This document shows positions 12,746-42,018 of a stretch of 64,000 nucleotides of DNA, piece after piece. Position 1 is the first letter of the stretch. Each line of letters opens with the position of its first letter. The stretch is from Thaumasiovibrio subtropicus (GTDB lineage: Bacteria; Pseudomonadota; Gammaproteobacteria; Enterobacterales; Vibrionaceae), in contig NZ_AP023054.1 of assembly GCF_019703835.1 (NCBI RefSeq), positions 1,488,001-1,552,000 of the forward strand, given 5' to 3'. The translations under genes were made by a program, and so were the position numbers. A model generated the notes under the pieces. The model ran no database searches and was not told where the DNA came from. It saw only the letters and a program-made list of their open reading frames with translations.

Positions 12746-12927
12746 TATCACGTCCTTATGTGTTTGGTTTAATAAAATAGTCAACTTAATCCTTTATGGC
12801 AAGCCACATGTCGTGGAGTTGTGGGTTGGGTATATTCAATTCTCCTTAGCATCAATAACCCTGCTTATGCCTCATTTGCATACACTCAAGACTATACTGT
12901 AATCACGAGATGTGCTTGGAGTATATA

Positions 12928-14964
12928 ATGACGCTGCATTTTCGCCTTAACACTCTGATTCTTTCGGGTTTTAGTTGTTTCTCTTTTGGTGCCGATGATG
13001 ACTTTTTAGATCTTGATGCACTCATGCAGATGGATGTTCAGGCGACAACCGCATTGAAACGCGCATCCTCAGTGCGAGATACCGCCGCTTCTGTTTATGT
13101 TATTGATAGTGAAGAACTCCATTTGCATGGTATTCGCAGTGTGCCTGAGGCATTGAAGTTGGTGCCGGGGGTCTTTGTCAGGCAGATAGACAATAATGTT
13201 TGGGCGATATCAACGCGGTTCGCAGCCAGTCAGTTTTATAGTCGCATGTTAGTGATGGTCGATGGACAGAATGTCTATAATCCGACTTTCGCCGGTATCG
13301 CGTGGGAAGAGTTGGATATCGACATCGATACCATAGAGCGAATCGAGGTGATTCGTGGGACTGGCGGCATGCTTTGGGGGGCAAATGCCACCAATGGTGT
13401 CGTTAACATTATTACTAAGCACAGTTTTGACACCCAAGGTGTAGAAGGTCGGGTGACAGTGAGTTCACTGCCAGGCTATGCGATGGCGTTAAAATATGGC
13501 GGAGGCTATGGTGATGACGTCAATTTTCGTATTGGTATCACCACGACTAATCACGAAAAGGCCAATAGACCTGACGACGCAAATGATGAAGGACGCGTGA
13601 CTTCATTGGGTCTACGGTGGGATTATAGTCTGACGCCTCAGCTTGAGTGGCAATGGCATACGCGCTTGTTACGTAGCGACATTGCGCAAGTGACGCGTAC
13701 ACAATGGCTCGATACACCTAAGACTGCTGAGACGATAGAAGGCGAAGGGTTATCGATGATGACACGTCTTGTTCACAATGTGTCACCCTATACCTCTCAG
13801 CAGTTTCAGGTCTCGTATCAATACAGTAATCGCCCTCAAATCGCTATTGATATTAAATACCAGTCATGGGATATCGACTATCAATACAATCATTCATGGG
13901 ATAATAAACGGCTCGACTTTGGTACTTATATTCGCCATAACGATGTACTTACTGATGATGGCTTATTGGTCACACTGTCAGAAAATGACACTAACCTCGA
14001 TATTTATGGCGCGTTTTTGCAATTTGAGTGGGCAGTGAGGGAAACAACCAAACTGCTGTTTGCGGGAAAGCTAGAACATAACAATTATCACGGTTGGGGA
14101 TTTCAACCTTCAGTCAGGTTGTTGCAAAACATTAATCAGAATCACAGTTTCTGGCTTGGTTATTCTGAAGTGGAACGAACACCGACATTTGGGGAGTATT
14201 CGATTGAGGTAAATTCGGCGCAACAGCCTTTTTCTTCTATTTATACTACTGGCGTGTCAAAGGTTGACAATTACTTGGTGAAGGCGGTAATTCGAAGTAA
14301 CAATGAGCTTGATGCTGATCGGTCTGAAAATATCGAAGCTGGGTATCGATATTATCCAGATCAAGATACCTTCCTGGACGTTTCAGCTTTCTATTCTACA
14401 TATAGAAATAGTGCAAACTTCGATATTGAAATCGATCAGCAAGCGATTGAGAGTATCGTCACACTGGCACAGATTGGCGATATCAGTGGTGCTCAAAACC
14501 GCATTGAACAGCTTAGGATTGGCTTTCAGTCTGTTGGTGGAGGCAAGCTTGATATTTATGGCGTCGAAGCGAGTCTGTCACAGATCCTTTCTGAACGTTT
14601 TCGGTTGCAGTTAGGCGTAAGTTTATTGGATATGCACTACCGTGGTCTGTTAGGCGAGATCTACGGATTGGGTGTGTCGGATGATATCGTCCAATCTAAG
14701 CTGAAGATGACCTATCTGTCTGCTGAAAACTTCAACTTTTCCGCAATGTTAACGCATGAATCTGAGAGTGATATTTATGGCACCGATGACTATTGGAGTA
14801 TGTCGTTAGGAGGGAACTATCGTTTTAGCGACCGCGTCAGTGCCGGGTTGTTTATCAAGAATGTGTTTGTAGATGGACTTGAGTACGGGAAGCAATCAGA
14901 TATCTATATTCATCAATCGGAAATTGAGCCCTATGTGATGGGAACAATCGTGATAGGGTTTTAG
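12928..14964 (+). CDS. TonB-dependent receptor linked to YfiR/GGDEF-EAL signalling
   Basis: A 678-residue outer-membrane receptor. It has a signal peptide (cleavage probably near residue 23), then an N-terminal segment DDFLDLDALMQMDVQATTALKR that resembles the start of the TonB-receptor class found beside YfiR-like proteins. The plug domain (about 45-160) includes SVPEALKLVPGVFV, MLVMVDGQNVYNPTF and IERIEVIRGTGGMLWGANATNGVVNIITK. The remainder is a 22-strand barrel ending in an aromatic-type TIVIGF. The ATG at 12928 has GGAG upstream. It overlaps the start region of the yfiR-like gene, so the three genes form one operon. A transport substrate cannot be predicted; the context suggests ligand sensing. 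Confidence 0.9.
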   Translation: MTLHFRLNTLILSGFSCFSFGADDDFLDLDALMQMDVQATTALKRASSVRDTAASVYVIDSEELHLHGIRSVPEALKLVPGVFVRQIDNNVWAISTRFAASQFYSRMLVMVDGQNVYNPTFAGIAWEELDIDIDTIERIEVIRGTGGMLWGANATNGVVNIITKHSFDTQGVEGRVTVSSLPGYAMALKYGGGYGDDVNFRIGITTTNHEKANRPDDANDEGRVTSLGLRWDYSLTPQLEWQWHTRLLRSDIAQVTRTQWLDTPKTAETIEGEGLSMMTRLVHNVSPYTSQQFQVSYQYSNRPQIAIDIKYQSWDIDYQYNHSWDNKRLDFGTYIRHNDVLTDDGLLVTLSENDTNLDIYGAFLQFEWAVRETTKLLFAGKLEHNNYHGWGFQPSVRLLQNINQNHSFWLGYSEVERTPTFGEYSIEVNSAQQPFSSIYTTGVSKVDNYLVKAVIRSNNELDADRSENIEAGYRYYPDQDTFLDVSAFYSTYRNSANFDIEIDQQAIESIVTLAQIGDISGAQNRIEQLRIGFQSVGGGKLDIYGVEASLSQILSERFRLQLGVSLLDMHYRGLLGEIYGLGVSDDIVQSKLKMTYLSAENFNFSAMLTHESESDIYGTDDYWSMSLGGNYRFSDRVSAGLFIKNVFVDGLEYGKQSDIYIHQSEIEPYVMGTIVIGF

Positions 14965-14966
14965 TG

Positions 14967-15488
14967 ATGCGGTTGTTTTTGCTCTTTCTCGCAATGACCT
15001 TAACGAGTGGGATAGCTGTCGCTGATGACAGCGAAGTCACTGAGCGTGAATATAAGATTAAAGCGGGGTATATCTATAATTTCATTCGCTATTCTCGTTT
15101 GAAAGAGTTGAAAGAGAATATTCAGGTTTGTAGCCCGAGTGCACCATTTATTTCGATTGCCAACAGTGTGTTTGGCGAAAGAGAAGTGAATGGTCGTTAT
15201 ATTACGCTGCATCAAGTTAAGGACGATATTAAAGGGTGTCATGTCGTTTTTATTTCTGAAGATGACGTTAAATGGTGGGAGGCAAGAAAAACAACCCCGC
15301 TACCTGAGAATGTGTTGATCGTTGGAGAAAGTGATGACTTCGCGATACATCTTGGGCATATCAATTTTGTTATTGTCGGCAGCAAAGTACGGTTTGAAAT
15401 TAACCCCCAAGAGCTTAGATCCTCCGGATTGAGTATTAGCTCGACTGTGTTGCGTCTGGGTAAGGTTGTATCAGGGGGGCCGCAATGA
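14967..15488 (+). CDS. YfiR-family (DUF4154) periplasmic protein
   Basis: A 173-residue secreted protein. A signal peptide ends near VADD (residue 20), followed by the YfiR/DUF4154 pattern: YKIKAGYIYNFIRYSRL, IQVCSPSAPF, GCHVVFISEDD, NVLIVGESDDFA, INFVIVGSKVRFEINPQEL and LSISSTVLRLGKVV near the end. In Pseudomonas YfiBNR, YfiR is a periplasmic repressor that holds the cyclase YfiN off. The two cysteines (in VCSP and GCHV) match the idea of redox-sensitive folding, but this is inference. The stop of the receptor and this start are two bases apart, and it overlaps the next gene by 4 bases (ATGA), so translation is coupled. Confidence 0.88.
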   Translation: MRLFLLFLAMTLTSGIAVADDSEVTEREYKIKAGYIYNFIRYSRLKELKENIQVCSPSAPFISIANSVFGEREVNGRYITLHQVKDDIKGCHVVFISEDDVKWWEARKTTPLPENVLIVGESDDFAIHLGHINFVIVGSKVRFEINPQELRSSGLSISSTVLRLGKVVSGGPQ

Positions 15489-17533
15489 GACGCCGAGGGT
15501 TGTCAGTCACCGCCAAGATAATGATGTTAGTCAATGGCGCGCTCATCACGGTCGTCATCGCATTACTTTGGCTCTTTTTTATGTTCGAAACTGGGCTCGT
15601 TAAAGCCTCAGAAGAGGCGAACCTCAATAGTCTTGTCGATGTGGTCAGTCCAAGTTTAAAAGCCGCATTGTTGTTTGATGATGTTGACACAATCCAAGAT
15701 ATCTTGTCCTCACTCAGGGCGTTAGACTCCATTGATTATGTCGCGGTGGTCGATCATAACAACCGAGTTATTCATGATATTGGGATATCGGTTGTGCCTG
15801 TTGAGGGTGGCGCGATATTACCAGAGTACTATCAGCGTCTCTTTTATGATGATGGTAGGTTACTAGCGACGTTAATTGTGGCAAAAAGTGAGAACTATCT
15901 TGGTGAGCAATTTGTGCTCTTTTCAAATGTATTGGTTGCGGTCTTTTTTATCTTCATCTTAGTTTCGGTTATTTTTTCTTACACGATTCAACACATTATT
16001 AGCTCACCAATCAAGCGACTCACGTCGGTGGTGAAGGGGATATCCGAATCTGGAGAGTATATGCAGCGCGCATCGATCGATACGCGGGATGAGGTGGGGG
16101 AGTTAGCCAAGTATTTTAATGCGATGATGGATGAAGTCAGTCAGCGGGATAAGTGGATGGAAGAGCAAGTCTCGCAACGCACCAAACAGTTAGAAGCTTC
16201 AAATCAAAAACTTTTTCAACTGGCATATACTGACCCGTTAACCAAGCTTGCGAATCGGTCTCGGTTTATCTCGGAGTTGGATTACTACACGCAAATTGGC
16301 CGAAGTGAGCCTTTTGCGTTGCTTTTTATTGATCTAGATAAGTTCAAAACGATAAATGACAACTTAGGCCATGAAGCTGGTGATCAGTTGTTAGTTGAAA
16401 CGGCAAATCGGCTTGTTTCGGCAATGGGAAAAGACGACATCGTCGCACGTCTTGGTGGCGATGAATTCGTTATCATGCATTTTGGCTATCAGAGCTTACA
16501 TGAGTTAAGACTCCGCTGTGAGCATTTGAGGCAACAGTTTCTCGCCCCATTTGTCCTCCAAAATCGCCATCTGTATGTCAGTGTTAGCGTGGGCGTCGCT
16601 GAGTATCCTAAAGATGGCCGAGAGAGTGACTTACTGGTAAAAAATGCTGACGAAGCGATGTATGTGGCGAAATCGAAGGGGCGAAACCGAGTTGGCTATT
16701 ACGAACCATCGATGGGCGCGGTTGCTGCTATTAGAATGAATTTAACCCAAGACCTGCGCTTGGCATTAAATCGTGGCGAGTTTGAAATTCACTATCAACC
16801 CATTGTCGATATGAAAACGGGTGAGTGGGTGAAACTCGAGGCATTGCTCCGCTGGCAGCACCCTACGCGAGGTATCATCTATCCGAATGAGTTTGTGCCT
16901 CATGCTGAAGAAAACGGCATGATCTCTGAGATTGGTCGCTGGGTGTTTATGCAGTCTGCAATCTATTGTCGCAAGCTCTATGAGCTCACTGGCCGTTGGT
17001 TTTCGATCAGTGTCAATATCTCTCCTGTGCAATTCAACGATAAGCCAGAGGATTACCATGATTATGTTAAGCGCTTCATGCGACTAAGGTTGCCAGAAGG
17101 AGCGTTGATCATTGAGATCACTGAAGGGTTGCTGATGGATGTTGATGAAGGTACCTCAGACTTATTAAGTGGTTTACGTCGTCTTGGAGTACAGCTCGCG
17201 ATTGATGACTTTGGCACGGGTTACTCTTCGTTGTCGTATTTAAGAAAATTTGACATTGATTTGCTCAAAATTGATCGCTCTTTTGTTGAGTCAATTGCTG
17301 ATTCACAAGATGACTGTGCAATTTGTGAGGCAATTATTACCATGTCTCATGCATTGGGAATTGCCGTCGTTGCGGAAGGCATTGAAACACAAAATCAGAT
17401 AGATGTGCTTAATCGATTGGGTTGTGATTATGGACAGGGCTATTTATTCTCATTGCCAATAATTGGCGATGCCTTACTGGTATCTATATGTGAAAAACAG
17501 GGCGTGCTTAAACTTACAAATCGCAAGGGATAA
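15485..17533 (+). CDS. Membrane HAMP-GGDEF-EAL c-di-GMP enzyme, partner of YfiR-like protein
   Basis: A 682-residue protein with a helix at about residues 10-33, a small periplasmic domain (34-143), a second helix (144-168), HAMP (about 172-225), GGDEF (active site GGDEF at 324-328) and EAL (EALLRW near 451). The RxxD inhibitory site is absent (GKDD at that position). The EAL domain keeps VNISPVQF, IEITEG, IDDFGTG, LLKIDRSF and AEGIET, so it looks catalytically competent. It can in principle make and degrade c-di-GMP; which activity dominates is unknown. The topology (periplasmic loop, HAMP) matches YfiN, which YfiR inhibits. Last gene of the receptor operon. Confidence 0.92.
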   Translation: MRRRGLSVTAKIMMLVNGALITVVIALLWLFFMFETGLVKASEEANLNSLVDVVSPSLKAALLFDDVDTIQDILSSLRALDSIDYVAVVDHNNRVIHDIGISVVPVEGGAILPEYYQRLFYDDGRLLATLIVAKSENYLGEQFVLFSNVLVAVFFIFILVSVIFSYTIQHIISSPIKRLTSVVKGISESGEYMQRASIDTRDEVGELAKYFNAMMDEVSQRDKWMEEQVSQRTKQLEASNQKLFQLAYTDPLTKLANRSRFISELDYYTQIGRSEPFALLFIDLDKFKTINDNLGHEAGDQLLVETANRLVSAMGKDDIVARLGGDEFVIMHFGYQSLHELRLRCEHLRQQFLAPFVLQNRHLYVSVSVGVAEYPKDGRESDLLVKNADEAMYVAKSKGRNRVGYYEPSMGAVAAIRMNLTQDLRLALNRGEFEIHYQPIVDMKTGEWVKLEALLRWQHPTRGIIYPNEFVPHAEENGMISEIGRWVFMQSAIYCRKLYELTGRWFSISVNISPVQFNDKPEDYHDYVKRFMRLRLPEGALIIEITEGLLMDVDEGTSDLLSGLRRLGVQLAIDDFGTGYSSLSYLRKFDIDLLKIDRSFVESIADSQDDCAICEAIITMSHALGIAVVAEGIETQNQIDVLNRLGCDYGQGYLFSLPIIGDALLVSICEKQGVLKLTNRKG

Positions 17534-27841: not shown

Positions 27842-27866
27842 AAACGGGCTGAGCGCCCGTTTTTTG
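27842..27866 (+). terminator. Rho-independent terminator after the lipoprotein gene
   Basis: ACGGGC / GCCCGT, 6 bp with a 5-base loop, followed by six T. Starts 6 bases past the stop codon. Confidence 0.85.
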
Positions 27867-28046
27867 TTACTGGTTACAGGCTGTGGCATGGAAAGCCCAA
27901 CGCCCCTCTGAACGGCACGTCAAACACACGCTTGTTGATCGACTTTAGTGATTAATTTATCTATAAAATCGGGTAAATCACTTAATACTGACTAAACTGA
28001 AATGTGGATTGTAATTATCGCGTCTCATTAAGGTGGTTGGTATTTG

Positions 28047-30098
28047 ATGGTCGGTGAACAAGGTATTCTAGGTACATCACTCAGGGCGGTGCGAGAAGGC
28101 CTGCTATGGATGGTACCTTGCCTTATGGTGTCGTCGGTAGTGTTGTTTCTTGCCAGTATCTTGGAGTTTTTCCAAGGTGGCGCGACTCCCTTCACCCAAG
28201 CACTTTATAGTTTACATGCGGCGATTAATGAGGCGTTGCCGCTGTTGTTAACGGCATCGATCGCTTACATGGTCGCGATGCAATGGAAATTGCCGCGCCC
28301 GCCATTGGCCTTGTTGTGCATTATCTATTTGGTGATAGTTAAGTCGCTGATTAGAGATGACCAAGCGCTATTAATATTCTATTTGCTAATCTCTATCGTT
28401 ACCCCTCTCTATGCTATTCCGCTCATCGCCCGATTACATCGCATCAAGTGGCTGAAAATCACCGATCAAGCAGCGGCAGGTAACAATGTGCGGGACTCGC
28501 TTAATCTCGTCATGCCATCGGTCATTGTCGGTGCTTTCATTGTTGCGGTGAACCTGTTCTTGAATGATGCCGTCGCGCTACTTGATGTCTCTCTACCGAT
28601 TTATCTCGATTATGCTAATGAGCCAACCCTTTTTGGCGTCGTGTTTGCTGCGTTGAATTCGCTGTTTTGGTTTGTTGGCATCCATGGATACTACGCCTTG
28701 CTACCGCTGGTGAGTGGGCTAGAAGAAGCGGTAACGCTAAATTACGCAACAGTCATCGCTGGTGGGGAGGGGGTCTACCCGATGAACCTCTCCTTTATGG
28801 GCGCATTTGTTTTTATAGGCGGCAGTGGCGCGACGATGTCACTGATTCTGGCGATACTATTATTTAGCCGCACCGATATTATGCGGGTGATTGCCATTGC
28901 CAGTATCCCCATTGCGTTAATCAACGTGAATGAACTGCTGCTGTTTGGCTTGCCGATCATTTTTAATCCAAGGTTGTTTATTCCCTTTTTCTTGGCACCC
29001 ATTGCTAATGTCATTGTCGGCTTATCAGCGATTCAAATGGGCCTCGTAGACAGTCCTTCAGTTTCCGCACCATTTAATAGCCCAGTGTTATTGAACGCTT
29101 GGATTGCCACGCGTGGTGACTGGGGGGCAGTGGCTTTACAGTTAGTGAATGTCTTTGTGGGGATGGTGATTTATCTGCCGTTTGTGCTGAAATTGGATCA
29201 ATTACGGATCAGTCGTTCGATCTACTTTTCATCGCTTGATACGACATTCTCTCGCCGTCTGGAAGAAGCGGAGACGCTGGCAGAAGACCCTATCAGTGAA
29301 GCAAAATCGGCGACGCTGGCCACAGAGCGGATGGATAGCTACTTAAAGCGTATTAGTGCCTACGAGTTCACGATGGAGTATCAGCCGCAAGTTGCGCGGC
29401 ATTCACAACACGTGGTGGGCAGTGAGGCGCTTATTCGTGCCATAGACAGTTCAGGTACCGTCAAGTATCCCGGTGAGTTCCTGCCTTGGTTAGAGAAAGC
29501 GGGCATGATGAAAGAGATCGATCTATGGGCGGTGAAGACGGTGACGGCACAGGCATTAAAGTGGCAAGGGCAGGGCGTTGATATCCCTATCAGTGTTAAT
29601 ATTACCGCAGAAACCTTGGCCTCGTTGAAGACGGTGAATCGCATCGTCAACATTGTTAAACCCGCCGCACATCTCGTGCATGTAGAGATTACCGAAGAGT
29701 CATTACTTATCGATGAGGTGATCATTAAGCAGGCATTTACATTGCTTCATAATGCAGGGATTAAGGTCTTTATTGATGATTTTGGCACCGGGTTTTCTTC
29801 GTTGAGTTATCTCAATCGTTACGATATCGATGCGATTAAAATTGATCGCAGTTTTGTTCTCGCCCTAGAGAATGAGCGAGGCCAAAAAGTCTTTAATAGC
29901 TTGCTCAGTGTGGCAAAAGCACTGGCCTTAAATGTTGTGGTGGAGGGGGTTGAAGAGTCAGAGCAGCTCCACTTTGTCCCGTTGGAGTCAACGATTTCTG
30001 TGCAAGGATGGTACTACGCAAAATCGCTCTCGCCCGAACATTTTGTCGAATTTGTTCAAACCTATAATCAGCCGCCTGAGGCGAGGCACCTGAGTTAA
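28047..30098 (+). CDS. PTS EIIC (lactose/cellobiose-type) fused to an EAL phosphodiesterase
   Basis: A 683-residue fusion. Residues 1-395 form a multi-pass PTS permease of the cellobiose/lactose EIIC family: LFWFVGIHGYYALLP and NVNELLLFGLPIIFNPRL are the substrate-site signatures. Residues about 420-670 form an EAL domain that hydrolyses c-di-GMP: SEALIRA near 459-465, VNITAETL, VEITEESLL, FIDDFGTGFSSLSYL, AIKIDRSF, VVVEGVEE, with metal- and substrate-binding residues apparently all present. No EIIA or EIIB domain is present in it or its neighbours, so sugar phosphorylation is doubtful and the permease may be a sugar sensor. The start at 28047 has AAGGTGG upstream. Monocistronic. Confidence 0.92.
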   Translation: MVGEQGILGTSLRAVREGLLWMVPCLMVSSVVLFLASILEFFQGGATPFTQALYSLHAAINEALPLLLTASIAYMVAMQWKLPRPPLALLCIIYLVIVKSLIRDDQALLIFYLLISIVTPLYAIPLIARLHRIKWLKITDQAAAGNNVRDSLNLVMPSVIVGAFIVAVNLFLNDAVALLDVSLPIYLDYANEPTLFGVVFAALNSLFWFVGIHGYYALLPLVSGLEEAVTLNYATVIAGGEGVYPMNLSFMGAFVFIGGSGATMSLILAILLFSRTDIMRVIAIASIPIALINVNELLLFGLPIIFNPRLFIPFFLAPIANVIVGLSAIQMGLVDSPSVSAPFNSPVLLNAWIATRGDWGAVALQLVNVFVGMVIYLPFVLKLDQLRISRSIYFSSLDTTFSRRLEEAETLAEDPISEAKSATLATERMDSYLKRISAYEFTMEYQPQVARHSQHVVGSEALIRAIDSSGTVKYPGEFLPWLEKAGMMKEIDLWAVKTVTAQALKWQGQGVDIPISVNITAETLASLKTVNRIVNIVKPAAHLVHVEITEESLLIDEVIIKQAFTLLHNAGIKVFIDDFGTGFSSLSYLNRYDIDAIKIDRSFVLALENERGQKVFNSLLSVAKALALNVVVEGVEESEQLHFVPLESTISVQGWYYAKSLSPEHFVEFVQTYNQPPEARHLS

Positions 30099-30199
30099 CA
30101 CGCGGTCACTAAAATACGGGGGCGTTTGGAACCCATCGGTTCTCTTTTTTCTGTTGTGATGCTGTGGTAGCGTGAGCTTTTTCATTGTTTGAGTTGTTT

Positions 30200-30811
30200 A
30201 TGCTTGATCTTTCGCCTTACCAAGCCGTGATTTTCGATATGGACGGCACCCTAATTGATTCCATGCCCTCACATTTAGCCGCATGGCAGCAAACCGCCGC
30301 CGCCTTTGATTTTCCTTTTGAACCCGAGTGGTTTTATCAACTAGGTGGACAACCCACCACCAAAACCGCCGTGATGTTAAAAGCAAAATACCCGATTGAG
30401 GCGAGTGAAGAAACGCTAGTGCAAACCAAATACGGTCATTATGAGGCCATCGAGCAAAAGGGCAGCTTGATAGCAAGTACCCATCAAGTGCTACTGTCTG
30501 TATTGGGTAAAAAGAAGGTCGCCATCGGTACAGGGAGTCGCCGCATTCATGCCGATGAACTACTGAGCAGCAATGGCGTGATTGACCATTTTGATGCCAT
30601 CGTCACTGCAAACGACGTTGAGAACCATAAACCTGCTCCCGATACCTTTTTGCAAGCAGCGGACAACATGGGAGTAGCGCCAGCAAAGTGTGTGGTGTTT
30701 GAAGACACCTTACTTGGTGTGCGCGCCGCACAAGCCGCGGGCATGGACTGCTATTTGGTTGAGCATGGCGAGATTAGCCGCTTTATTAAAGCGGGTGAAG
30801 CGGTGTCATAA
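30200..30811 (+). CDS. HAD-superfamily phosphatase, YqaB-like
   Basis: A 203-residue hydrolase of the beta-phosphoglucomutase-like subfamily: nucleophile motif FDMDGTLIDS, motif II IGTGSRR, motif III Lys in NHKPAPDTF and acidic pair in VVFEDTLLGVRAAQAAGMD. It resembles E. coli YqaB, which hydrolyses fructose-1-phosphate. It follows the PTS-like gene by about 100 bases, so a sugar-phosphate substrate would fit, but this is inference. ATG at 30200 is preferred over a TTG at 30185; the ribosome site is weak. Confidence 0.88.
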   Translation: MLDLSPYQAVIFDMDGTLIDSMPSHLAAWQQTAAAFDFPFEPEWFYQLGGQPTTKTAVMLKAKYPIEASEETLVQTKYGHYEAIEQKGSLIASTHQVLLSVLGKKKVAIGTGSRRIHADELLSSNGVIDHFDAIVTANDVENHKPAPDTFLQAADNMGVAPAKCVVFEDTLLGVRAAQAAGMDCYLVEHGEISRFIKAGEAVS

Positions 30812-30830: not shown

Positions 30831-31670
30831 CTACTTCTCTGTCACATCTAAATACTTCGCATGAAAGTGCAGGTGCTCTTCAATGAAGCTGGCGATAAAG
30901 TAGTAGCTGTGATCGTAGCCATGCTGGGTTCGCACGGTGAGAGAAGGGTATTGTTTACCAGCTTGGACTAAACGCTCAGGGTGCAGCTCGGTGTCGAGGA
31001 ACTCATCTTTATCGCCTTGATCAACCAGTATTGGGGTTTGTGCGTTGGCGTTACTGATTAAACAACAGGCGTCAAACTCCTCCCATAGCGAGGTATCGTC
31101 GCCCAAGTAATGGCGAAAAGCTTTTTGTCCCCATGGTGTTTTACTTGGATTGCAAATCGGGCTAAAGGCGGAGATAGAGCAGTAACGATGGGGATTATGA
31201 AGCCCAATGATCAATGCCCCGTGGCCGCCCATTGAATGACCGGCAATGCTACGAAGATGGTTTACGGGAAAGTGCGACTCAATCAAATGTGGCAGCTCAA
31301 CGGCGATGTAATCGTACATCTGGTAGTTGTGTACCCAAGGTTGTTGAATCGCATTGATATAGAAGCCCGCACCTTGGCCAAGGTCATAAGCTTCGTTGTC
31401 AGGGACATCGTCACCGCGGGGGCTGGTGTCCGGGATCACAAGCGCTATACCGAGTTCGTTGGCGGCACGCTGCACACCGGCTTTGGTTGAAAAGTTTTCA
31501 TCGCTGCAAGTCAAACCAGAGAGCCAGTAAAGGGTGGGTACTGGGTGGTCCATACTTGCACATTGAGGCAAATAAATGGAGAAGGTCATCGCACAGTTAA
31601 GCGTATCTGATTGATGCTGATAACGGTGTTGCTCGCCGCTATGGCAACGCTGTACAGAAAGGAGCTCCAT
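30831..31670 (-). CDS. fghA: S-formylglutathione hydrolase
   Basis: A 279-residue alpha/beta hydrolase of the esterase D family, normal length. [10 protein letters not shown] carries the nucleophile Ser, DQGDKDEFL the Asp, and the C-terminal [13 protein letters not shown] the His. [16 protein letters not shown] is a family signature. It splits S-formylglutathione to formate and glutathione, the second step of formaldehyde detoxification after FrmA. AGAGG precedes the ATG. It is downstream of frmA, with a repeat element between. Confidence 0.95.
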
Positions 31671-31691
31671 GAAAACCTCTAATCACATGTT

Positions 31692-31810
31692 GATACTTAA
31701 GCCCCCTCAAGATGCTAGCTCAGCAAGAATGTCTAGGTCTGCTATCGAGGTACTGCTTTGACGCTCTTGTCGACGACATCAAAATGCAGTAATCAAGGTG
31801 GCTTGAGTTT
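31692..31810. repeat. Dispersed repeat, short form (copy C) between frmA and fghA
   Basis: About 119 bases with imperfect inverted ends: ACTTAAGCCCCCTCAAGATG at the left and CAAGGTGGCTTGAGT at the right. Its body (TCTAGGTCTGCTATCGAGGTACTGCTTTGA and following) aligns with the left part of copy A near 62576-62640, so it is an internally deleted version. It would be transcribed inside the frmA-fghA message and form a hairpin. Confidence 0.75.
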
Positions 31811-31813
31811 AGT

Positions 31814-32953
<1,140 letters not shown>

Positions 32954-38084: not shown

Positions 38085-38248
38085 TATTTTCGCTTCCTTG
38101 TGAAGGTAAACCGCGTAAATGTATGTACGTAAGTGGCATAGAGGCGCTTGAATATAGTTAGACCTCATTACCACCTTTTTATTACAAACCCCTGCATATG
38201 AAGGTTTTTCACCTACAATTAATTTACCAGTTTAGGGGGCAGGTAAAC

Positions 38249-39379
38249 ATGAAAGTAGTACAAAGCCGTTGGAAGAGTGATGAGTGGCATTTGGGGGCAA
38301 AACTTGAAGGGGTGGACGGTGAACATACTTTAGCGCTGGTATTTGGTGATCTTGGTGATAATCCGCATGCGATACAGGGACTGAGACAGCTATTGCCTAC
38401 GGCACATATTATTGGGGCGACCACGGCAGGCGAGATTGAAGGTGTTGATGCGTTAGAGAATGAACTTGTTGTGACGGTTATTGAATTTGAAAAGACACAG
38501 ATCAAGACAATCAGTGTTGCTGTTGAGCCGAGCAGTGACTTTCGCCAAATTGGTCGAGAACTCATCAGTCAGTTGGAAGATAGCAGACTCAAAGCGGTTT
38601 TCATTCTGTCAGAAGGGATCGTGATTAATGGTAGCGAGCTTGTTAGAGGGTGTCATGAAGTACTGAAAAGTGACGTCCTCCTTACTGGCGGGTTAGCGGG
38701 CGATGATATCCGCTTCTCGACAACGAAGACGGCGCACAATGAGGTGATAGCGTCGCAGCAGGTTGTTGCACTAGGCTTATACAGTGATGTATTGGAAGTC
38801 GGGGTAGGATCCTGTGGTGGTTGGTCTGCATTTGGTCCTGTGCGACGTATTTCTGACTCTGAAAATAACGAGCTGATATCCCTTGATGGGGAGCCAGCGC
38901 TCTCTGTTTATAAGAATTATTTGGGCGCATTGAGCGAAGGATTGCCTTTCTCTGGCTTGAGGTATCCCATGCAGCTGTTTTCGCCTGAAAAAGCCTCTTC
39001 AGTTGTCCGCACTTTGGTTGGTTTGGATGAGGAGAAAGGGAGTATTTACTACGCAGGGGAGATGCCAAAAGGGGCAAGTGTTCAGTTGATGAAAGCGACG
39101 GTTGATTCGCTGGTGGAAGGTGCTGAAAGTGCGGCCAAACAGGCTATGCAGCATCACAGTGATGATGTCGATGTCGCGCTTCTGATTAGTTGTGTCGGTA
39201 GAAAGCACGTGCTCAAGCAATTGGTAGAAGATGAGTTAGAGGCCGTCCAAGATGTGCTTGGCGAAGAGACCATGTTAACGGGTTTCTATTCCTACGGAGA
39301 GATTGCGCCGCATGCCAAGGGTGAACATGCACAGCTTCACAATCAAACCATGACCATTACGACCCTCAAAGAGTCTTGA
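38249..39379 (+). CDS. FIST-domain sensor protein (possibly NosP-like)
   Basis: A 376-residue cytoplasmic protein with an N-terminal FIST domain (LALVFGDLGDNPHAIQGLRQLLPTAHIIGATTAGEI, VFILSEGIVINGSELVRG, LTGGLAGDDIRF) and a C-terminal FIST_C part (GEPALSVYKNYLG, ALLISCVGRKHVLKQ, LTGFYSYGEIAPH). FIST proteins bind small ligands; the NosP subgroup binds haem and nitric oxide and is often next to c-di-GMP or kinase genes. Haem binding here is not shown. It is 4 bases upstream of a GGDEF gene, so it is probably that enzyme's sensor. AGG lies 6 bases before the ATG. Confidence 0.88.
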   Translation: MKVVQSRWKSDEWHLGAKLEGVDGEHTLALVFGDLGDNPHAIQGLRQLLPTAHIIGATTAGEIEGVDALENELVVTVIEFEKTQIKTISVAVEPSSDFRQIGRELISQLEDSRLKAVFILSEGIVINGSELVRGCHEVLKSDVLLTGGLAGDDIRFSTTKTAHNEVIASQQVVALGLYSDVLEVGVGSCGGWSAFGPVRRISDSENNELISLDGEPALSVYKNYLGALSEGLPFSGLRYPMQLFSPEKASSVVRTLVGLDEEKGSIYYAGEMPKGASVQLMKATVDSLVEGAESAAKQAMQHHSDDVDVALLISCVGRKHVLKQLVEDELEAVQDVLGEETMLTGFYSYGEIAPHAKGEHAQLHNQTMTITTLKES

Positions 39380-39383
39380 ACCA

Positions 39384-40823
39384 ATGCATCGGTTATTGAA
39401 GCGACAGCTAAAGCGCATTGGTCTTGCTAATGAGCCTGTTTCTAATGAGATGCAGCGCCTGATTGACTTAGTCGGTCAGGCCTACAGTGATTATGACGAA
39501 GCTCATACCATTTTAGAGCGCTCGCTTGATATTAGTCTGAAAGAGCTGAATGACCGAAATCACTATCTACAGATGGTGCTTCAGGCCATTCCTGATAGCT
39601 ATTTACTGATCAGTGAGAGCCTTTACATCAATGATTTCCGTATCACATCCGAGCTGAAAAACGTATTTCGACAGGTTGAGGTTGATTCAGTCATGTCGAA
39701 TAACATCTTGATTCAGCATAGTGAAAATCTCATCCTACTTGTTAAGCAAGTGGTGAGGACCGGGGATTCGCAAGATACGGTGATTCGTATCGTCAACGAT
39801 GAGTTGTCGGTGTTTGTTGAAGTGCGTTGTCGGCGAATTGATAAACTGAGCTTGTTGTTGACATTCCGTGATGTGACTGATCATTTTGTCGCCGAGCAAC
39901 TGCGGGCCCAGGCGTTGATTCAATCGCAACGCTCTCAACGGCAACTGCAAGACGTCATTGATGCGGCACCCGTTGGTATCGTCATTTTAGACATGAATTA
40001 TCGTATTACGCTTGTGAATCAGTATGCGGCCAACCGATTGGGGCGATCCGAGCAGGAGTTAGTGGGCATACCGGCATTGCAGTTATTGATTTCTCAGCAC
40101 CGAGCGAAGTATTTCGAACAGTTGCAAAATCTCTCTGACGGAAAATCCGCTTGTTCGTTAGATGTCTCGATGAGAGCCTTATCTGAAGTTGGCTTTATGG
40201 TCAGTCTGTCTTTAAGCAAAGTGATGTTCGATAACAAAGAGCAAATCATTCAGACCTTCACAGATATCACCGATCGAATAGCAATGGAAGGGCAGTTGCG
40301 CATTATGGCGACAACGGATCCCTTAACAGGCATTTATAATCGTCGATCTTTTGATGAGAAGATGAGCGTTTTTCTCGCTGATCAACACCATGCGTGTGCA
40401 ATTATCATGATGGATTTAGATCACTTTAAGCAGGTGAATGATAATTATGGCCACTCGGTGGGTGACAATGTCATTGTGGCTGCCGTCAACGTGGTGCTTA
40501 AAGAGTTGCGCAGCCAAGATCTCTTCGGGCGCTATGGTGGCGAAGAGTTTATTGTTGGTTTGCCTGACACATCACATATTAGTGCAACACGGATAGCGGA
40601 AAGGTTGAGAGCCGCCATTGAAGGACATGCGATAGCCGTGGGCGAGAATCAATCAGTCAATATTACCGCAAGTTTTGGTGTCTCCTCTACTGAGCAAGGG
40701 GTGATGAGATTAGAGCCTTTAATTTTAGTTGCCGACAAGAATCTTTATCTTGCTAAGAACCAAGGTAGAAACCGTGTTGTGGCACTTCATTCCAATGAGG
40801 TGGTGAGAAAGCTAAATCCATGA
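39384..40823 (+). CDS. PAS-GGDEF diguanylate cyclase, FIST partner
   Basis: A 479-residue cytoplasmic enzyme. It has an N-terminal coiled region (1-60), a first PAS-like region (about 62-170), a helix linker, a second PAS domain (about 188-300, starting VIDAAPVGIVILDMNYRITLVN) and GGDEF (starting TTDPLTGIYNRRSFDEK). Active site GGEEF lies near 385, with an I-site RSQD five residues before, so c-di-GMP synthesis with feedback is expected. Co-transcribed with the FIST gene (4-base gap), which presumably modulates it. Confidence 0.92.
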   Translation: MHRLLKRQLKRIGLANEPVSNEMQRLIDLVGQAYSDYDEAHTILERSLDISLKELNDRNHYLQMVLQAIPDSYLLISESLYINDFRITSELKNVFRQVEVDSVMSNNILIQHSENLILLVKQVVRTGDSQDTVIRIVNDELSVFVEVRCRRIDKLSLLLTFRDVTDHFVAEQLRAQALIQSQRSQRQLQDVIDAAPVGIVILDMNYRITLVNQYAANRLGRSEQELVGIPALQLLISQHRAKYFEQLQNLSDGKSACSLDVSMRALSEVGFMVSLSLSKVMFDNKEQIIQTFTDITDRIAMEGQLRIMATTDPLTGIYNRRSFDEKMSVFLADQHHACAIIMMDLDHFKQVNDNYGHSVGDNVIVAAVNVVLKELRSQDLFGRYGGEEFIVGLPDTSHISATRIAERLRAAIEGHAIAVGENQSVNITASFGVSSTEQGVMRLEPLILVADKNLYLAKNQGRNRVVALHSNEVVRKLNP

Positions 40824-40849
40824 TGCCTCCGCAGGTGGCTTGGGTATAT
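40824..40849 (+). repeat. Solo end of the dispersed repeat (copy G)
   Basis: CAGGTGGCTTGGGTATAT matches the right inverted end of the repeat family with one mismatch over 17 bases. It begins right after the stop of the PAS-GGDEF gene; no other part of the element is recognisable. Confidence 0.5.
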
Positions 40850-40965
40850 TAGTTATATACTGATATTAGTCGTATGCTGTCTTAAGGTGTAGCATGTCAG
40901 TCTTTCAGGTTGTACTCTCATTAGGAACACACAATAAGTCTTCTACCGTATTGCAAGGTATCAAA

Positions 40966-42018
40966 ATGACCAATTTATATAGCTTGGTTATGATGTCTGC
41001 TTTTATGGTTAATGTTGTCCTGTTTTATTTTCATTATCATCTGCCTATGCCATTGACCGTGGTTGGACTATTTGCTTTGTTCTCTTTATTCGGATTGACG
41101 CTAGTGCTTAATGGTGTTGGCCTGAATTTTATTGCTCAATTATGGCTAATTAGTATTTATACATCGACGGTGTTTGCTTCGCATTTATTTATTTTCTCCA
41201 GTCATGGTAATTACATTTGGAATATTGTCGTCGTCTATCCGCTATTGTTTTTAATTTGGGGAAGAGAGCAACAAAGATTCAGAGTCATCGTTTTAACCGT
41301 TGTGCTTGTTTTGTTTATCGGTAGCTCCTTAGTCAGTTACTCTATTGAACCAGTGGTGAAGCAACCCGGTGAATTTGTGAATCTACTTGCCTTTATCAAT
41401 GTTACACTCTTCTTATCATTGATGGCTTGGCAGTTTACTCAAGATATCGCGGTGTTTCGCGAGATGGTGGATGAGGAGGCTGATGCCGACCAATTGACAG
41501 GGGTATTAAGTAAAGTCCAGTTTGAATTTAAAATGAAAGAGGCCTTACGCTGGAAGGGAAGTGATGAGTGTCATAGCCTGATGGTCATCGATCTTGATCG
41601 TTTTAGGCAGATTAACGAACAGTTTGGCCATGAAGGTGGGGACAAGGCGTTAACATCTCTGGTTGATGGTATATTGGCGGTGAAACCTGAAGATGTATTG
41701 CTTGGCCGCTTGTATGCCGATCGATTTTGTCTCTTTTGGTTGAATGACACCGAAGAAGAGGCTGTGTTAACCGCGAGTCATATAGCAAGAAACATTAATC
41801 TCGCGTCGGTAGAGTTCAACAACCAGCTTTTTCCATTGCAAATCAGCGCCGGTTTGACGACCGAACGTCAAAGAAAAGACCTAGCGCGACTGTTCAATGC
41901 GAGTAATGATGCCTTGTACCGTGCCAAAAGAAGCGGCCGTGGTTGCTTAGCTGTTTCTGAGGGAAAAATAATCACCTTGGTCAACGTGAGTGATAATTAC
42001 GAAGAATCAAATGTTTGA
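40966..42018 (+). CDS. Membrane GGDEF protein with degenerate active site
   Basis: A 350-residue protein with about six membrane helices (residues 3-170) and a C-terminal GGDEF-fold domain that starts EADADQLTGVLSKVQFE. The catalytic GGDEF is replaced by YADRF near residue 249, and the metal-ligand region reads MVIDLDRFRQINEQFGHEGGDKAL, so it keeps the fold but should not make c-di-GMP. It may bind c-di-GMP or GTP, or heterodimerise with the next gene, a close paralogue. AAGGTATC precedes the ATG at 40966. Confidence 0.88.
   Translation: MTNLYSLVMMSAFMVNVVLFYFHYHLPMPLTVVGLFALFSLFGLTLVLNGVGLNFIAQLWLISIYTSTVFASHLFIFSSHGNYIWNIVVVYPLLFLIWGREQQRFRVIVLTVVLVLFIGSSLVSYSIEPVVKQPGEFVNLLAFINVTLFLSLMAWQFTQDIAVFREMVDEEADADQLTGVLSKVQFEFKMKEALRWKGSDECHSLMVIDLDRFRQINEQFGHEGGDKALTSLVDGILAVKPEDVLLGRLYADRFCLFWLNDTEEEAVLTASHIARNINLASVEFNNQLFPLQISAGLTTERQRKDLARLFNASNDALYRAKRSGRGCLAVSEGKIITLVNVSDNYEESNV

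Follow-up and report, generated by a model that had tools for sequence, protein, structure and literature searches.

A phosphotransferase-system EIIC domain joined to an EAL domain in Thaumasiovibrio subtropicus: a putative sensor for cyclic di-GMP hydrolysis

What does a sugar permease domain do when it is built into an enzyme of second-messenger breakdown and none of its usual partners stands alongside? The question is raised by a gene in a 64,000-nucleotide stretch of the Thaumasiovibrio subtropicus genome (contig NZ_AP023054.1, positions 1,488,001 to 1,552,000; referred to as the window), which encodes a membrane EIIC domain of the phosphotransferase system (PTS) and an EAL domain in a single open reading frame (ORF). 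In a PTS, EIIC binds the sugar and offers it up to be phosphorylated by EIIB, and a working PTS permease needs both EIIB and EIIA. As judged from sequence comparison, the EIIC-EAL protein is proposed to be a one-component membrane phosphodiesterase for cyclic di-GMP (c-di-GMP), in which EIIC has been retained to sense a ligand and not for PTS uptake (probability about 0.6).

Architecture of the EIIC-EAL protein

The features of the protein are listed below in window coordinates. The solved chain 3qnq (PTS cellobiose IIC) serves as reference for the EIIC half, and the subgroup comprises the close fused relatives, with 35-58% identity over EIIC.

28044..30098, plus strand: EIIC-EAL protein, a single ORF of 684 amino acids from TTG 28044 or 683 from ATG 28047
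28077..29201, plus strand: lac/cellobiose-family PTS EIIC membrane domain, residues ~12-386 (Pfam; lacE, under cut-off; 3qnq)
28683..28685, plus strand: His214, aligned with His250 of 3qnq (from the alignment)
28929..28934, plus strand: Asn296-Glu297, with Glu297 aligned with Glu334 of 3qnq (from the alignment)
29202..29342, plus strand: linker, residues 387-433, conserved in the subgroup
29343..30023, plus strand: EAL domain, residues 434-660 (Pfam; eight catalytic residues)

The ATG at 28047, which is preceded by AAGGTGG, is at least as likely to be the start as the TTG at 28044. The initial annotation, made from the letters of the sequence, had read this frame as a cellobiose-type EIIC permease fused to a catalytically complete EAL domain, and profile searches of both halves agree with it. 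The Pfam family PTS_EIIC matches residues 17-319 (E 4.5e-18, 65.8 bits against a cut-off of 30.7), and EAL matches residues 434-660 (E 1.3e-53, 182.2 bits against a cut-off of 31.3). Against the NCBIfam models lacE and cellobiose IIC, residues 200-388 score 141.6 bits, under the respective cut-offs of 236 and 434.45. On these scores, the EIIC half is therefore classed as a divergent member of the lac/cellobiose family. Its C-terminal half aligns with 3qnq (E 1.3e-25, residues 194-390), and the subgroup relatives align with it over residues ~12-390. The motifs FWFVGIHG and NELLLFGLPI, which had first suggested a cellobiose-type EIIC, cover positions 250 (His) and 334 (Glu) of 3qnq, two residues that reportedly line the site of sugar phosphorylation.

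In the EAL half, all eight residues that we take to bind metal or substrate in catalysis are present (E461, N519, E548, D578, D579, K599, E634, and Q654). The best solved relative of this half is 4rni (Motility regulator, which we take to be MorA; E 2.1e-35), with matching catalytic residues. Between the domains, linker residues T400, R404, E407, E408, A409, L412, and D415 are invariant in the 21 subgroup rows of the alignment, and a helix at 416-438 is predicted with low to moderate confidence by the structure model.

Across the 54 fused rows of the alignment, all eight EAL residues are kept in 52, the exceptions being L061, whose frame is truncated, and L070, which is a GGDEF fusion. The Glu at the position of Glu297 is kept in all 54, the preceding Asn in 51, and the His in 38. 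Within the subgroup, Asn296 and Glu297 are invariant (21/21), whereas 20 of 21 rows have the His. Twelve aligned subgroup rows come from genomes in which neither EIIA nor EIIB of the family was found, as described below, and they retain Asn-Glu in 12/12 and the His in 11/12.

PTS partners and the fused EIIC

The subgroup is represented in 65 genomes, namely the source genome and 64 others whose EIIC match falls within it; other fused subgroups are more distant. EIIA of the lac family (EIIA-Lac) occurs in 38 of the 65, and a ChbB-type EIIB occurs in the same 38. At E <= 0.001, neither was found in the remaining 27. A ChbC query in these 27 genomes returned 59 lac-family EIICs, all of which were fetched: 57 are in frame with EAL, one is a GGDEF fusion (genome G159), and one runs off the end of its contig (G083). 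The 57 EIIC-EAL frames comprise 55 of near full length, one with the C-terminal part of EIIC only (G083), and one with a truncated EAL domain (G111). No stand-alone lac-family EIIC was found among the 59 matches of this search, which used one query sequence and which very distant EIICs could escape; in two control genomes with EIIA and EIIB, the same search did reveal stand-alone EIIC frames. Because the pocket residues persist in genomes without a detected partner of the family, the EAL domain is intact by sequence, and the linker is conserved, a role of EIIC in sensing appears most likely.

The tree of EIIC sequences splits 49 fused from 17 stand-alone rows by one branch, with a support of 100/99. 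Rows L004, L080-L082, L084, L085, L099, L107, and L109 were omitted from it. Among the 20 rows labelled stand-alone in the alignment, L084 and L099 are shortened fusions, and L004 and L007 represent one gene.

The protein could alternatively be a working PTS permease that imports sugar with EIIB and EIIA supplied in trans from the chb operon, its EAL domain reporting the transport flux. In the source genome, chbBCA is present as a complete operon (C1:3.18 Mb), which lies 1.66 Mb from the fusion, and the genome's one lac-family EIIA and one ChbB-type EIIB are both located inside this operon; phosphotransfer in trans to the fused EIIC could therefore occur in this genome. The counterparts of His250 and Glu334 are also kept, and there is a weak positive association with EIIA-Lac, which is commoner in subgroup genomes (38/65) than in other Vibrionaceae (94/231; Fisher p 0.016, ignoring descent). 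However, an EIIC is already encoded within the chb operon, and in 27 of the 65 subgroup genomes neither partner was detected. No ChbA- or ChbB-like protein was found near any of the 41 fusions, the window's included, when this genome's proteins were used as queries (E <= 0.1) against the 562 ORFs of the neighbourhoods. Furthermore, 16 of the 54 fused EIICs (15 from subgroups other than the close one) have Asn in place of the His, which speaks against phosphorylating transport. This explanation is regarded as unlikely. The initial observation that no EIIA or EIIB lies nearby holds.

Four further matches to the broad family PTS_IIB lie elsewhere in the source genome, which also has 27 EAL matches in total. 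A second fusion in this genome was considered and rejected: the only other EIIC frame of more than 600 amino acids (C2:122511) is an ordinary EIIABC, of the fructose type by eye.

The exchange of His for Asn and the 27 genomes without a ChbB-type EIIB would also fit an EIIC that only anchors the protein in the membrane or is a relic in decay. Nothing sugar-like would then be sensed, and the EAL domain would be constitutive or set by expression. Under anchoring alone the active-site motifs should drift, but Asn296 and Glu297 do not vary in the subgroup and the Glu is present in every fused row. This weakens the explanation, and it is considered improbable.

Several observations weigh against a sensor, in addition to the chb operon and the association with EIIA-Lac. 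Asn replaces the active-site His, with the Glu retained, in rows L058, L063-L074, and L076-L078 (e.g., GING for GIHG), so the EIIC pocket is not uniform. Other EIIB families lay outside the search of the 27 genomes lacking EIIA-Lac and ChbB, and 20 of these genomes are drafts of 30 or more contigs; the other seven are in three or fewer (G012, G054, G197, G210, G224, G270, and G276). Long branches in the EIIC tree, and the small variety of stand-alone EIICs included, weaken any conclusion on origin. Structure modelling of the window protein and five relatives is good for EAL and poor for EIIC (mean predicted local distance difference test 59.9, predicted template modelling score 0.42). At least two subgroup copies are defective, those in G080 (two stops) and G287 (split); the copy in G083 ends at a contig end. 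Control by CRP was rejected, as sites with at least 8 of 10 matches occur in 3 of 21 upstream regions, compared with a mean of 2.3 and a maximum of 7 in shuffles. The sugar sensor proposed in the initial annotation is favoured by the 27 genomes and by the 59 EIICs without a stand-alone member, while the presence of chbBCA in the source genome counts against it.

Surroundings and distribution of the gene

Three further features flank the gene.

27842..27862, plus strand: terminator-like hairpin just after the preceding gene, upstream of the fusion (consensus match only)
30128..30143, plus strand: terminator-like hairpin after the fusion and ahead of the HAD gene (consensus match only)
30185..30811, plus strand: adjoining HAD hydrolase of the beta-phosphoglucomutase/YqaB type (TIGR02009, 173.3 bits against a cut-off of 153.35)

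Since terminator-like hairpins are predicted on both sides, the EIIC-EAL gene probably forms its own transcript. The sugar-phosphatase-like gene noticed next door is real, being the HAD hydrolase, but it is not conserved beside the fusion, as 0 of the 40 other fusion neighbourhoods contain its protein cluster. As a hairpin also intervenes, an operon with this phosphatase was rejected, and the HAD hydrolase is probably not a functional partner of the fusion.

In 19 of these 40 neighbourhoods, all of them in the close subgroup, a nucleotidyltransferase-like gene instead stands directly 5' of the fusion. Genes for polB and a response regulator are within reach in 17, and uvrC in 13; these four names were assigned by eye. 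Such neighbours bear on a further explanation, in which EIIC is a facilitator that admits unphosphorylated sugar, the EAL domain is coupled to its passage, and cytosolic enzymes then process the sugar. Pocket residues kept without a detected EIIB would be expected in this case. However, no sugar gene is conserved nearby, the commonest subgroup neighbours being the four just named, and a facilitator is considered very improbable.

Other genes of the window were also recorded. A pair encoding S-formylglutathione hydrolase and S-(hydroxymethyl)glutathione dehydrogenase, for formaldehyde detoxification, lies on the minus strand at 30831-32944. A membrane-type GGDEF-EAL protein, whose EAL domain looks complete by eye, is encoded at 15485-17533, downstream of a TonB-dependent-receptor-like gene (12910-14964, by eye). 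At 38198-42018, a FIST-domain protein is followed by a PAS-GGDEF protein and another GGDEF protein, a possible cluster for sensing and c-di-GMP synthesis.

Matches to the EIIC part, fused and stand-alone together, occur in 191 of 296 Vibrionaceae genomes. Across the order, they occur in 139 of 394 genomes (fused and stand-alone, Vibrionaceae members included), and across the class in 2 of 369, the source genome being one. A scan of named genomes with the single protein as query gave five loci, and the named relatives are Vibrio. Among the matches listed from plasmid records, fusion-like hits over most of the protein come from Vibrio, Tritonibacter, Pseudoalteromonas, Acetoanaerobium, Photobacterium, and C. 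difficile. The three annotated plasmid-record matches that were inspected are labelled only as EAL domain-containing protein. Of eight more proteins searched with Pfam, seven have EIIC and EAL, and one has EIIC and GGDEF.

Variants of the layout were also seen. In genome G159, an EIIC-GGDEF protein of 771 amino acids (L070:7498-9810, the same gene in L127) has the motif GGDEV and, in between, a GAF match under its cut-off. Here, the same kind of sensor domain is apparently linked to c-di-GMP synthesis. In both L076 and L078, another ORF from the EIIC-EAL cluster stands directly upstream, apparently giving two EIIC-EAL genes in tandem.

A model of sensing and its relation to known systems

If the fused EIIC is a sensor, a ligand would enter its pocket, and this ligand is probably a di- or oligosaccharide; beta-glucosides are one guess. 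Its binding may make the EIIC dimer shift from an inward-facing to an outward-facing state or back. The linker helix would pass this shift on, altering the pairing of two EAL domains and hence the rate of hydrolysis. The c-di-GMP level would then track carbon supply; the ligand, its affinity, the direction of control, the enzyme activity, and the dimer mechanism are all inferred. Such a protein would offer a direct route from outside sugar to the decision to swim or settle, without phosphotransfer. Cross-genome comparison separates sensing from transport and, as the EIIC family has a solved structure, the ligand of the sensor can be guessed and tested.

On a broader scale, chances are about even that lac-family EIIC is the source of an ancient and broadly distributed class of non-transporting receptors that outlived its PTS. 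This class would serve mainly in c-di-GMP breakdown and at least once in synthesis, with His exchanged for Asn and Glu kept in some subgroups. In these subgroups, a ligand could bind without being passed on for phosphorylation. EIIC itself is not known to be phosphorylated in this family.

Proteins of this kind have been catalogued before. A 2022 review (PMC8846402) lists PTS_EIIC among the rare domains of c-di-GMP enzymes, in its available text without saying GGDEF or EAL, and the protein described here, with PTS_EIIC and EAL in one chain, fits the kind listed. The review terms the EIIC domain a phosphoreceiver, whereas the phosphocarrier partners of the family were not found in 27 of the 65 genomes analysed here. 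Its available text describes no experiment on an EIIC fusion, and notes that many putative sensory domains of c-di-GMP enzymes are without a validated role (PMC8846402). The words EIIC, PTS, and phosphotransferase are absent from the main text of two Vibrio surveys (PMC10552763, PMC11575326). Among the papers listed by literature searches for the fused protein, or for PTS together with EAL, none is a functional study of an EIIC-EAL protein, and a search on the ChbC residues returned no paper. The c-di-GMP enzymes of C. difficile were surveyed in 2011, and that survey may contain the same layout. As far as the searches show, the EIIC-EAL kind is thus already listed, and the new element is the evidence that separates the fused EIIC from PTS partners.

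Trigger-enzyme EIIs such as BglF are PTS permeases that double as sensors and signal by phosphorylating a regulator. EIIC-EAL resembles BglF as a permease with a sensing role, but it has no phosphotransfer domain. With the EIICs for lactose, cellobiose, and chitobiose, represented by 3qnq, it shares homology over the C-terminal half and the residues aligned with His250 and Glu334; it differs in being joined to EAL, in having no EIIB or EIIA alongside, and in grouping apart from the stand-alone EIICs in the tree. The relative of the other half, 4rni, has no EIIC part. A functional parallel in a Vibrio is V. cholerae PdeS (VC1710) with EIIA-Glc, where the sugar status of the PTS is likewise coupled to an EAL phosphodiesterase (PMC6877527). 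Identity with PdeS was ruled out, since PdeS is described there as a PAS-EAL protein regulated by EIIA-Glc, whereas in the fusion the permease domain belongs to the enzyme itself.
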